Part shown: in pieces, positions 57,191 through 60,713 of the stretch | Layout of the letters: every line of letters begins with the position of its first letter | Numbering within the stretch: the first letter of the stretch is position 1 | From: Geovibrio ferrireducens | Lineage (GTDB): Bacteria; Chrysiogenota; Deferribacteres; Deferribacterales; Geovibrionaceae | Length of the DNA: 64,000 bases | Assembly: GCF_026226615.1 (NCBI RefSeq) | Contig: NZ_JAJAPB010000003.1 | Span: forward strand, 124,001-188,000 | Direction: 5' to 3' | Notes under the pieces: model-generated | What the model saw: only the letters and a program-made list of their open reading frames with translations | The model's database searches: none | What the model was told of the DNA's origin: nothing | Translations under genes and position numbers: made by a program

Positions 57191-58596
57191 AGAACAGGCC
57201 CCAGTGTCCGGCATACACCCTCAAAAACACGCACAGAAAACGGACGGTTCCTCACAGCTTTAAGCTCGACCTCTTCGGAATGGCAGAGATAATAGCGGAC
57301 AAGCCTGTCCACATCCTCAGCAAAGGCTCCGGAATAAGCCACTATGTTAAGCTCAAAATTTATCTTAAAGCTCCTGCCGTCCATGTTGGCGGAACCTGTG
57401 ATAACAAAATAATCATCAATAACAACAATCTTCGCATGGAGCATTATGCCCTTGGTTTCGTAAATCCTCACTCCGTTCTCGATAAGCTCCTCGTAATACG
57501 AGCGCCCCGCGGCAGCGGCAAGGGGCTGGTTGTTCCTGCCGGGGAGAATTACGGTTACATCTATCCCCTGTCTGCTGATATTCTTAAGAGTCTCTATAAC
57601 AGGCTGATCGGGTACAAGGTAAGGAGTGACAATCACAACGGACTTTTTCGCCCTGTTCAGGGTGCTGAAAAGGGTGCTGTATATCAGCGGGCGAGGCATA
57701 TGGGGACCGGAGGGCACAACCTGAACCGTGGTATCGCCGCCGCGCTCCACCTGAGCGCTTTTTATAAGCTCCTCTATGCTTTCCCCTGTGGCAAAAAGCC
57801 AGTCCTCGGCAAAAACTTCCTCCACCGGGTAAACCGCATCTCCGCCGAAGGAAAGGTGAGCGTCAAACCATTTCCTGTTGCCGAAAAACCCGCCCATGTA
57901 TTCTCTGCCTATGTTCATGCCGCCTGTGTAGCACACTCTGCCGTCCACTATTGCTATTTTGCGGTGATTACGGAAGTTCATGCGTGAAACTGTTTTAAAC
58001 CCTAACGGCGGATGGAAAACGGCTATGTTCACCTTGCTTTTCTTGAGTCTCCGGTAAGTGCTGCTTAATGTGAAGCCGAAAGAGCCGAAGCCGTCCACCA
58101 GAAGGTAGACCTTCACACCTCTTTCAGCGGTGTCTATGAGCAGATCTGCAAAGAACTGCCCCGCAAAGTCGTTCCTGAAAACGTAATACTCCATGAGCAC
58201 ATACTTCTCAGCCGAGCTTATGTCCTCGCCGAGGAGCGAATATTTCTCCCCTCCGCCTATTATAAGTTTCAGATTGCTGCACATATGCGGCGCAACCCCG
58301 GTTATCTTCTCCACAAGTGCGCCCAGACCGCTCTTATCGAACTCTTCATCATGCTTAACGTATTTTTTGAGGGCTATGGACTGGTATGACTTAAACTTCT
58401 TCTCAAGCATGCGCTTAAGTCTCGGATTACCGAGAAGTATGTACATCACTGCGCCTATGAACGGAAACAGAACAACCACCATAAGCCATGAGAAGTTCGC
58501 CCTCGCCTCCCTCCGGCCGGAGAGAATAACAAGGACAAGTATAAGCGATATAACTTCCCCCAGATGCTGAAAAAACAGATCCAAATAAGCGGTCAT
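57187..58596 (-). CDS. cls: Cardiolipin synthase
   Basis: Makes cardiolipin from two phosphatidylglycerols at the inner membrane. Two N-terminal transmembrane segments, then two phospholipase-D motifs: NFRNHRKIAIVDGRVCYTGG near residue 210 and MLHAKIVVIDDYFVITGSAN near 390, both with the H-x-K residues. Length 469 is normal. It is convergent with the EAL gene (4-base overlap) and ATGA-overlaps the radical SAM gene. Confidence 0.93.
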   Translation of the reverse strand: MTAYLDLFFQHLGEVISLILVLVILSGRREARANFSWLMVVVLFPFIGAVMYILLGNPRLKRMLEKKFKSYQSIALKKYVKHDEEFDKSGLGALVEKITGVAPHMCSNLKLIIGGGEKYSLLGEDISSAEKYVLMEYYVFRNDFAGQFFADLLIDTAERGVKVYLLVDGFGSFGFTLSSTYRRLKKSKVNIAVFHPPLGFKTVSRMNFRNHRKIAIVDGRVCYTGGMNIGREYMGGFFGNRKWFDAHLSFGGDAVYPVEEVFAEDWLFATGESIEELIKSAQVERGGDTTVQVVPSGPHMPRPLIYSTLFSTLNRAKKSVVIVTPYLVPDQPVIETLKNISRQGIDVTVILPGRNNQPLAAAAGRSYYEELIENGVRIYETKGIMLHAKIVVIDDYFVITGSANMDGRSFKINFELNIVAYSGAFAEDVDRLVRYYLCHSEEVELKAVRNRPFSVRVFEGVCRTLGPVL

Positions 58597-59501
58597 CTCC
58601 CGAATAAAACTCCCTGACGCAGTCCCTTTTCACGCATTACGCTTTTGAGAAGATTAATAAACTCATTCTTGGAGATTCCCCACCGGGGCGCAATAAGCGT
58701 TTCCCCTGCGGCATCACCCATAAGACGCGCAATGACAGTTTCCTCCGGCAGAAGCGCAATGCACTCCGCCAGAACATCCGCATATTCACGCACGTCCATA
58801 ACCTTGATTTTACTCTGATTATAAATATTTTCAAGCTCCGTATCCTTCACTACGTGAAGATGATGGAACTTCACGGAATAAACCCCGCAGGCAGCGGCAA
58901 AACGCACGGTTTCCAGCATATCTTCACGGGTGTCGTTCGGCAGACCGAGGATAATATGAGCGCAGGACTTTATTCCCCGCACAGAGGTTTTCCGCACTGC
59001 TTCCGCGAAATCCTCCGCTGTGTGGCCGCGGTTTATTATACGCAGGGTTTCAGGGTTTGAGGATTGCAGCCCGTACTCCACAACCACCTCATAGCGCTTG
59101 TTTAACTCCGCCAGATAGTCAAGCTTTTCATCATCCACCGTGTCCGGGCGTGTGCCTATATGGACAGACACTATGCCGTCATCAACGAGGGCACTTTCCA
59201 TTTTAGCTTCTATCTCATCAAGAGTGCCGTAAGTGTTTGAGTATGACTGAAAATATATGATATACGCATTGATATTCTTCTGTTTCAGAGCCTCAATGCG
59301 CCTCTTCACCTGCTCCGTTATTTCGCCTGCTGACGCACCGGAGAATGACTCATTATTGCAGTAAATACACCCTGAATGCCCCTTGGTTCCGTCCCTGTTG
59401 GGGCATGTGAAGCCCGCATCCACAGGCACTTTCCACACCTTTTGCCCGAACCGGCGGCGGAGATAGGTATTCAGATCGAGGTACAGGTTGTCGGTCATCA
59501 T
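58593..59501 (-). CDS. Radical SAM protein, TIGR01212 (YhcC) family
   Basis: 302 residues. The 4Fe-4S cluster binds Cys residues in FTCPNRDGTKGHSGCIYCNN, with the family's longer spacing. Other signs: IYFQSYSNTYGTLDEIEAK, HIGTRPDTV, EYGLQSSNPETL, HIILGLPNDTREDML. YhcC proteins have no settled reaction. It lies directly upstream of cls on the minus strand. Confidence 0.88.
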   Translation of the reverse strand: MMTDNLYLDLNTYLRRRFGQKVWKVPVDAGFTCPNRDGTKGHSGCIYCNNESFSGASAGEITEQVKRRIEALKQKNINAYIIYFQSYSNTYGTLDEIEAKMESALVDDGIVSVHIGTRPDTVDDEKLDYLAELNKRYEVVVEYGLQSSNPETLRIINRGHTAEDFAEAVRKTSVRGIKSCAHIILGLPNDTREDMLETVRFAAACGVYSVKFHHLHVVKDTELENIYNQSKIKVMDVREYADVLAECIALLPEETVIARLMGDAAGETLIAPRWGISKNEFINLLKSVMREKGLRQGVLFGR

Positions 59502-59565
59502 GGCAGGTATAATAGATTCAGGCTTTCAGGAAAGAAAGATAATTCGGCACAGCAATCCAAACAGT

Positions 59566-59593
59566 TTGCAAAAGAATGCTGAAATTATATAAT
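59566..59593 (+). promoter_or_regulatory. Predicted promoter of the nucleotidyltransferase pair (leaderless)
   Basis: -35 TTGCAA (59566-59571), 16-base spacer, perfect -10 TATAAT (59588-59593). The ATG of the first gene is at 59600, where transcription should begin, so the mRNA would lack a leader; no Shine-Dalgarno is present. Confidence 0.65.
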
Positions 59594-59599
59594 AGTAGC

Positions 59600-59923
59600 A
59601 TGAAACATGAAAAACTTGACCGCCGCAGTCTGGAGCTTCATTACCTGATTGCGGATAAAATCAGAAAAGAGCCCTGCCTCATCGAAGAAGCAAAAGCAAC
59701 TATTGAAAAATGGCTCAATACTGTTTCGCCGCATTCAAAACCTTACCTTGTGGAATGGAAAAAGATTTTAAACAGCAGTACTGAACAGTGTCTCGCCTTT
59801 ATGACGGAAAATTCAGAGCATGCTGATTCTCTCCGCCAATCATCACCCTTCGCTGGGATTCTGACAAATAAAGAACGCTTTGAGTTTCTGAACAAATGGA
59901 GAAGCAGCAATGAGGAGGCATGA
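59600..59923 (+). CDS. Unknown 107-residue protein paired with a DUF6036-like nucleotidyltransferase
   Basis: A small helical protein (ELHYLIADKIRKEP; ATIEKWLNTVSPHSKPYLVE; RQSSPFAGILTNKERFEFLN). I recognise the pattern as the usual upstream partner of DUF6036 nucleotidyltransferases, but its function is not known. It overlaps the next gene by 14 bases. I chose the second Met (59600) because the -10 element lies immediately upstream; the first in-frame ATG at 59576 would be inside the promoter. By analogy to nucleotidyltransferase toxin-antitoxin pairs it could be the antitoxin or partner. Confidence 0.6.
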   Translation: MKHEKLDRRSLELHYLIADKIRKEPCLIEEAKATIEKWLNTVSPHSKPYLVEWKKILNSSTEQCLAFMTENSEHADSLRQSSPFAGILTNKERFEFLNKWRSSNEEA

Positions 59924-60434
59924 ACTTGAACACCTGCTCAGAGCAGCGGGAGCAGTAACTGATCAGAAAAAAATAATTGTTATAGGCAGCCAGTCAGTAC
60001 TCGGCTCTGTCCCGGATGCTCCTGATGAACTGCTGATGTCCATGGAGGCAGACATGTACCCGGCAGAAAAGCCGGAGCTCGCTGATATTATAGACGGTTC
60101 AATAGGGGAACTTTCCCCTTTTGAAAAAACCTTCGGATATTATGCGCAGGGGGTCGGCCCGGAAACTGCAATTCTGCCCGCAGGCTGGGACGTACGCACA
60201 GTTGAAATACACAACAGAAACACAGATGGTGTGACAGGTATGTGTCTTGAACCGCATGATCTCGCAGCATCAAAACTGGCTGTCGGCAGGGAGAAAGATT
60301 CAGTCTTTGTCAGAGCAATGCTGAAACATCAAATAATCAGCATGAACAAACTTCATGACCGCATAAGCCTTCTGCCCGTGGACGAGGAAAGAAAGGTATA
60401 CCTGAAAAAAATTGCAGAATCTTTGACAAAATAA
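59910..60434 (+). CDS. DUF6036-like nucleotidyltransferase
   Basis: 174 residues. A minimal nucleotidyltransferase fold: Gly26-Ser27 in IVIGSQSVLGS, then Glu46 and Asp48 in SMEADMYP in place of the usual Asp-x-Asp, and later IDGSIGELSPFEKTFGYY, GVGPETAILPAGW, LEPHDLAASKLAVGREKD. The last block resembles the AbiEii/MNT-type nucleotidyltransferases of toxin-antitoxin systems. The nucleotide and target are unknown. Its gene follows its partner with an overlap, in a gap between ordinary genes. Confidence 0.72.
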   Translation: MRRHELEHLLRAAGAVTDQKKIIVIGSQSVLGSVPDAPDELLMSMEADMYPAEKPELADIIDGSIGELSPFEKTFGYYAQGVGPETAILPAGWDVRTVEIHNRNTDGVTGMCLEPHDLAASKLAVGREKDSVFVRAMLKHQIISMNKLHDRISLLPVDEERKVYLKKIAESLTK

Positions 60435-60481
60435 CCCCTCGGTCTATTTACATTACAGCATATTTCCCTTCTTGTATTTGT

Positions 60482-60527: not shown

Positions 60528-60713
60528 ATGGCTTTAAAACCCGAACTTATAGAAGTGCTTGCATGCCCCAAATGCAAAACAGGCGTGAGAGTTTCAAAAA
60601 ACGGCAAAGCGATAGTCTGTGACACATGCCGCCTTATTTACGAGATAAAAGACGACATCCCTGTAATGCTTATTGACGAAGCAAAACAGGTCGAGAACAC
60701 GGAAGAGTATTAA
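60528..60713 (+). CDS. Trm112/UPF0434 family zinc-ribbon protein
   Basis: 61 residues with two Cys pairs, ACPKCKTG and VCDTCRLI, and the family end YEIKDDIPVMLIDEA. Relatives (YcaR, Trm112) are small zinc-binding partners of methyltransferases or unknown. It is followed by nnrDE after two bases. Confidence 0.85.
   Translation: MALKPELIEVLACPKCKTGVRVSKNGKAIVCDTCRLIYEIKDDIPVMLIDEAKQVENTEEY

Follow-up and report, generated by a model that had tools for sequence, protein, structure and literature searches.

A horizontally acquired DUF6036 nucleotidyltransferase gene pair of Geovibrio ferrireducens, probably a toxin-antitoxin module with a predicted leaderless message

In the 64,000-nucleotide window of the Geovibrio ferrireducens genome analysed here, two short overlapping genes, P1 and P2 (Table 1), probably constitute a horizontally acquired toxin-antitoxin module in which P2, a nucleotidyltransferase of the DUF6036 family, would be the toxin and P1, a small helical protein, the antitoxin. 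This assignment is drawn from sequence comparison, and what argues for it is the strict pairing of the two genes across distant relatives, the damage that falls on one side of the pair only, and a patchy distribution centred on plasmids.

The two open reading frames, 59600-59923 and 59910-60434, share 14 nt and lie between a minus-strand gene (58593-59501) that we take to encode a radical-SAM protein and a gene beginning at 60528 that we take to be Trm112-like, both names having been read from the sequence and not from a library search; the overlapping pair between unrelated genes that an earlier, sequence-only reading had described is thus as described. Two same-genus genomes match the DNA of the window up to 59501 (or 59488) and again from 60462, and in them the same flanking genes are 166 and 333 bp apart and do not enclose the module, so that about 960 bp stand here where the relatives have a short variable spacer. 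No relative of P1 or P2 was found among 50 further genomes of the phylum, the two same-genus genomes included. Outside the phylum, relatives of the pair occur on plasmids and on scattered chromosomes: proteins 35-53% identical to P2 are encoded in 59 plasmid records from Pseudomonadota and Actinomycetota, of which 39 were typed as conjugative or mobilisable, and P2 relatives were found in 10 of 398 sampled Pseudomonadota genomes. None was found in 50,697 phage records or in viral contigs, and no integrase, terminal repeat or dedicated transposon was found at the segment edges. The sequence-only reading had proposed a small mobile module and a presence/absence comparison among relatives as its check; that comparison gives a patchy pattern, with plasmid relatives, and vertical inheritance is rejected, since the module is missing from the 50 other genomes of the phylum and the same-genus sites are empty. 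By this comparison the module is horizontally acquired.

Table 1. Coordinates of the module and its features in the window. Motif counts refer to sequences with letters at the position (n = 33 for motifs I and II).
Feature	Coordinates	Strand	Description
Segment carrying the module	59502..60461		Inserted or replaced, from DNA identity with two same-genus genomes
Predicted promoter	59566..59593	+	TTGCAA 59566-59571, 16-nt spacer, TATAAT 59588-59593; predicted start on or beside the ATG
26-bp imperfect palindrome ATGCTGAAATTATATAATAGTAGCAT	59576..59601		10/13 pairs, spans the -10 and the start codon; candidate operator
P1	59600..59923	+	107 aa, all-helical, putative antitoxin without a recognised DNA-binding domain
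P2	59910..60434	+	174 aa, DUF6036 nucleotidyltransferase, putative toxin
P2 motif I, G26-S27	59985..59990	+	Invariant, 33/33
P2 motif II, S44-M-E46-A47-D48	60039..60053	+	E46 and D48 33/33; S44 is 32 S, 1 T
P2 motif III/IV-like, D117...K122...R127-x-K129-D130	60258..60299	+	D117 31/31, K122 31/33, D130 32/32
Second ATGCT-N16-AGCAT site ATGCTGAAACATCAAATAATCAGCAT	60318..60343		Lies within P2; possibly a coincidence of the coding sequence
			

Pairing was checked in 40 loci, a few of which are near-duplicates (e.g. L021 and L025). An intact P1-type open reading frame lies just upstream in all 34 loci with toxin sequence, all 27 intact toxins having such a partner, and where the overlap of the two genes was measured it is mostly 4 or 14 nt. 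The toxin gene is broken by frameshift, deletion or truncation in seven of the 34 (L002, L030, L032, L033, L103, L105, L106; some of the frameshifts may be sequencing errors) and the partner gene in none. Six loci carry the partner only (L009, L010, L017, L018, L044, L102), a count to be read as an existence proof because these came from a partner-based search, and there is no toxin-only locus among the 40. Damaged toxins next to intact partners are what a toxin role of P2 and an antitoxin role of P1 would predict. Intact toxins are under purifying selection, as dN/dS in close pairs is 0.03-0.08. The pair thus has the general marks of toxin-antitoxin systems, adjacent or overlapping genes, toxin-only loss and a patchy mobile distribution, and the earlier suggestion of a possible toxin-antitoxin pair gains support from partner conservation, loss asymmetry and mobility. 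On the plasmid of Pseudomonas sp. Leaf58, the open reading frame of the partner (L011, 2706-3056) is intact but carries no annotation in the record.

P1 itself matched nothing in Pfam, NCBIfam or PADLOC. Its AlphaFold model is all-helical (pLDDT 85) and a fold search of the PDB with this model returned nothing below E 1; by sequence, neither P1 nor P2 has a relative in the PDB. A homologous domain, marked by a conserved L-R-Q-S-S-P-F stretch and Trp53, is encoded upstream of DUF6036 in all toxin loci and is absent from every family library searched. It stands without a head in Geovibrio P1, Acidiphilium and Alicycliphilus and is fused to an Xre-type head in Comamonas, Rhodoferax, Cupriavidus, Hydrogenophaga, Curtobacterium and Mycolicibacterium; three of these were scanned against the family library (L006, L012, L014), and the helix-turn-helix matches include HTH_31 (2.7e-10) and HTH_3 (1.3e-7). 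The Methylovorus partner (L007) has instead an AbiEi/DUF6088-like head (2.6e-5; DUF6088 score 24.5, just below the cut-off of 25). An exchangeable DNA-binding head on a constant tail is a typical antitoxin design. P1-like proteins of 105-141 aa with no adjacent toxin are also encoded on Pseudomonadota chromosomes (L045, L046, L047, L048, L050, L052, L053, L054), some next to what looks like a gene for DNA polymerase III alpha/DnaE2 (L045, L050) or lexA (L048), and a Pfam scan of two of these solitary proteins gave no match. They are possibly lone antitoxins that have taken on a new, SOS-linked role; that they lack a toxin indicates that the P1 domain can have other roles, which counts against the toxin-antitoxin model.

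P2 matches PF19502 (DUF6036, ‘nucleotidyltransferase of unknown function’) over residues 16-163, with 40 bits against a cut-off of 23.6. The Glu-x-Asp that had been noticed in place of the usual Asp-x-Asp of a nucleotidyltransferase site is real, and the Glu is invariant in the clade and not a defect. DUF6036 proteins without a partner in the same genome sample (L110, L118, L120, L123, L124, L126) read [S/T]-x-D-x-D; with Glu in 33 of 33 partner-linked sequences and Asp in the sampled partner-less ones, Glu is a signature of the partner-linked clade, a contrast that is a clade difference and not a curated family criterion. The motif III/IV-like stretch resembles the K..R..+D of AbiEii and MenT (PMC3985639, PMC10435456). 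Set against the DUF1814 motifs hG[G/S], RxxxDhD, Lys III and +DxxD IV, P2 shows GS, SxExD, K122...R127 and K129-D130, and it lacks the motif II Arg, the first Asp and the last Asp of +DxxD. No AbiEii family match was found for P2 in Pfam or NCBIfam, nor any match by sequence to solved MenT or AbiEii structures, and a comparison of the P2 profile with AbiEii, for which there were only three template proteins, was not significant. The structure model of P2 and its fold search were too poor to interpret, the alignments having three and two rows only.

The Glu at the first acid is the feature of P2 that puzzles most. AbiEii lost its toxicity with D67E as well as with D69E (PMC3985639), from which it follows that an E-x-D site either works otherwise or is inactive. 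The latter would make P2 a nucleotidyltransferase fold without catalysis, its effect coming from binding and not from nucleotide transfer, to which the missing motif II Arg of DUF1814 would also be suited. Yet G26, S27, E46, D48, D117, K122 and D130 are essentially invariant and under strong purifying selection, as expected of an active site, and we regard a dead enzyme as improbable. We give as little credit to a pair that is no toxin-antitoxin system but a plasmid-borne regulator with a nucleotidyltransferase that modifies a cellular or phage target and is kept for its benefit, for example in defence. A defence role would likewise give a patchy, mobile distribution, and the neighbours of the relatives are often AbiE and other mobile-element genes; the strict pairing and the bias towards loss of the toxin alone disfavour it, however, as do the lack of a PADLOC match and of any relative among the phage records.

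Least likely, in our estimate very unlikely, is that the roles are reversed in the manner of HEPN/MNT (HepT-MntA) systems, with P1 as a helical HEPN-like RNase toxin and P2 as an antitoxin that inactivates it by nucleotidylation. Those systems also place a helical protein beside a small nucleotidyltransferase, MntA antitoxins are nucleotidyltransferases (PMC7641770), and R9-x4-H14 in the all-helical P1 fits the Rx4-6H form of HEPN. This motif is not conserved, however: of 40 partners, no more than 15 have R-x4-6-H in the first helix, the proteins with Xre heads showing Leu or another residue instead of Arg, and P1 has no Pfam HEPN match and no fold match. Moreover, in each of the seven damaged pairs it is the DUF6036 gene that is broken and the P1-type gene that is intact, which is the wrong direction for reversed roles, and it is the P1-type proteins that carry the DNA-binding heads, as antitoxins do. 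Motif, heads and loss pattern thus lead us to reject the reversal, and P2 as toxin with P1 as antitoxin is the assignment retained below.

A second unusual aspect of the module is the start of its message. The predicted promoter matches the consensus at 10 of 12 positions and its TATAAT ends 6 nt before the ATG at 59600, so that the usual +7 start would fall on the A of that ATG. GGAG, GAGG, AGGA and AAGG were sought 5-15 nt upstream of it and none is present, which is weak evidence in itself since in 304 kb of the same genome no more than some 36-46% of genes have a strict Shine-Dalgarno motif ahead of them (3.5% at control positions). Few genes of this genome share the layout: in 9 of 259, the best -10 (score of at least 6) lies 4-10 nt ahead of the start. 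Chance matches do occur (six promoter-like matches in 1.46 kb, with 1.7 expected), and there is an alternative in-frame ATG at 59576 and another TATAAT, lacking a good -35, at 59508-59513. Both the close promoter and the missing Shine-Dalgarno on which the sequence-only reading had built a leaderless message are there in the DNA, and this promoter is best read as giving a leaderless message, the same layout being above chance in the family; the message of the module is accordingly predicted to start at or next to the P1 ATG.

Among 26 non-redundant family loci, the best -10-like hexamer lies 4-10 nt ahead of the antitoxin start in 11, whereas 400 dinucleotide shuffles gave 3.2 such loci on average and 8 at most, and the mean near-start -10 score is 2.4 against 0.26 (sd 0.43) in shuffles; the start codons come mostly from annotation or N-terminus alignment, which leaves some room for bias. 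Clear cases are those of Hydrogenophaga (TTGGTCACTATAATGACCAAATG), genome locus L040 (CCTATAATATTGAACATG), Cupriavidus (TAGAATACTGGACATATG) and Mycolicibacterium (TATAGTTGATTGATG), and the layout is absent from the Rhodococcus loci that have Shine-Dalgarno motifs. A single such site could be due to chance, but for the family (11 of 26, with about 3 expected) chance is rejected. Leaderless regulators have precedents in the repressors PaaR2 and lambda cI (PMC8630535), and most toxin-antitoxin pairs of M. tuberculosis with mapped starts are leaderless (PMC3898074). The likeness is that the message of a regulator or antitoxin begins at its start codon; the difference is that the start is here predicted from the DNA alone and that the toxin family is unrelated.

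The palindrome over the -10 region is matched in quality in 1.9% of local shuffles, and palindromes abutting the start codon are enriched across the family, the observed mean being reached by 4 of 400 shuffles. The near-start promoter of the family often falls within such a palindrome. An operator over the palindrome would allow the antitoxin to repress its own promoter; for the Xre-fused antitoxin of Hydrogenophaga the candidate site would be TTGGTCACTATAATGACCAA. The second site, inside the toxin gene, matches the promoter palindrome in its outer arms and length; ATGCT-N16-AGCAT occurs at three sites in 304 kb of the genome, two of them within the module, which is weak evidence. An operator-like 30-nt direct repeat (D1) that contains this second site was rejected, its similarity being within the shuffle range. 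The symmetric ATTATATAAT core at 59584-59613 also reads as a minus-strand promoter-like site, TTTTCA-18-TATAAT, which may serve the divergent radical-SAM gene, and the two promoters would then share one -10 region.

How might such a module work? P2 would be a compact polymerase-beta-fold nucleotidyltransferase, a member of the E-x-D clade of DUF6036, and an RNA would be the probable acceptor of the nucleotides that it transfers. MenT toxins add nucleotides to tRNA 3' ends, and by analogy these ends would be the most plausible target of P2, with an arrest of translation as the result. P1, as an all-helical antitoxin, probably binds P2 directly; in the relatives, the exchangeable heads on the P1 domain probably repress the operon through the palindrome that covers the -10 and abuts the start codon. 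In Geovibrio P1 this head is missing, as it is in the small antitoxin MenA1, and the lack of a recognised head to account for autoregulation counts against the model. With the message predicted to start at the antitoxin ATG, the antitoxin would be translated first and leaderlessly, and the toxin would follow through the 14-nt overlap. As the Ser, Lys and Asp of P2 come in the MenT order, control by phosphorylation of S44 is conceivable. An appealing possibility, with which only the position of S44 agrees, is that P1 acts like MenA and moves S44 in such a way that P2 autophosphorylates. It is tempting to go further, although we consider the larger proposal rather unlikely as a whole, and to see in the E-x-D clade a distinct toxin family in which Glu for the first catalytic Asp changes the metal geometry and the reaction or target relative to MenT and AbiEii, and in which a previously undescribed, head-swapping helical antitoxin domain neutralises the toxin and is made from a leaderless message as a fail-safe. 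In that proposal, because initiation factors can be bypassed when 70S ribosomes translate leaderless messages, the antitoxin could still be made while ordinary initiation is slowed by the toxin or by stress.

DUF6036, annotated on plasmids as a nucleotidyltransferase of unknown function, is named in no paper of the literature searched, and the comparison gives it a testable role and a named partner domain. It also raises the questions of how a nucleotidyltransferase works with Glu where Glu kills AbiEii, and of whether selection has favoured leaderless synthesis of antitoxins in bacteria other than mycobacteria.

The closest known systems are MenAT and AbiE. In MenAT1 and MenAT3 of M. tuberculosis, an antitoxin gene is likewise followed by a nucleotidyltransferase toxin gene. 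The MenT phosphoacceptor, T39 in MenT1 and S78 in MenT3, lies two residues before the catalytic D41 or D80, and MenT1 also requires K137 and D152 (PMC10435456, PMC11375011); P2 shares a Ser or Thr two residues ahead of the first catalytic acid, in its case S44, and a later Lys and Asp. Another likeness is that MenA1 is a small protein with no DNA-binding domain (PMC10435456), as is P1, and horizontal acquisition has been suspected for MenAT1 (PMC10435456, PMC11375011). In contrast, MenT is a DUF1814 protein with Asp at the first acid whereas P2 is a DUF6036 protein with Glu, the spacing from Lys to Asp is 8 residues in P2 against 15-22, and no relation of the 107-residue P1 to MenA1 or MenA3 was found. 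The type IV AbiE system (AbiEi-AbiEii) also has an antitoxin gene ahead of a polymerase-beta-type nucleotidyltransferase gene and is associated with plasmids and ICEs, and the AbiEi/DUF6088-like head of the Methylovorus partner is joined to a P1 domain. No library match, however, identifies that domain with the C-terminal domain of AbiEi, and motif II is SxExD in P2 but RxxxDhD in AbiEii, which does not tolerate D-to-E (PMC3985639). The pair resembles MenAT and AbiE in its probable mode of action, yet by sequence it falls outside DUF1814 and AbiEii. In several relatives on plasmids (L003, L004, L012, L014, L102) a separate AbiEii-type nucleotidyltransferase gene is present within a few kb, as if such modules cluster on plasmids.
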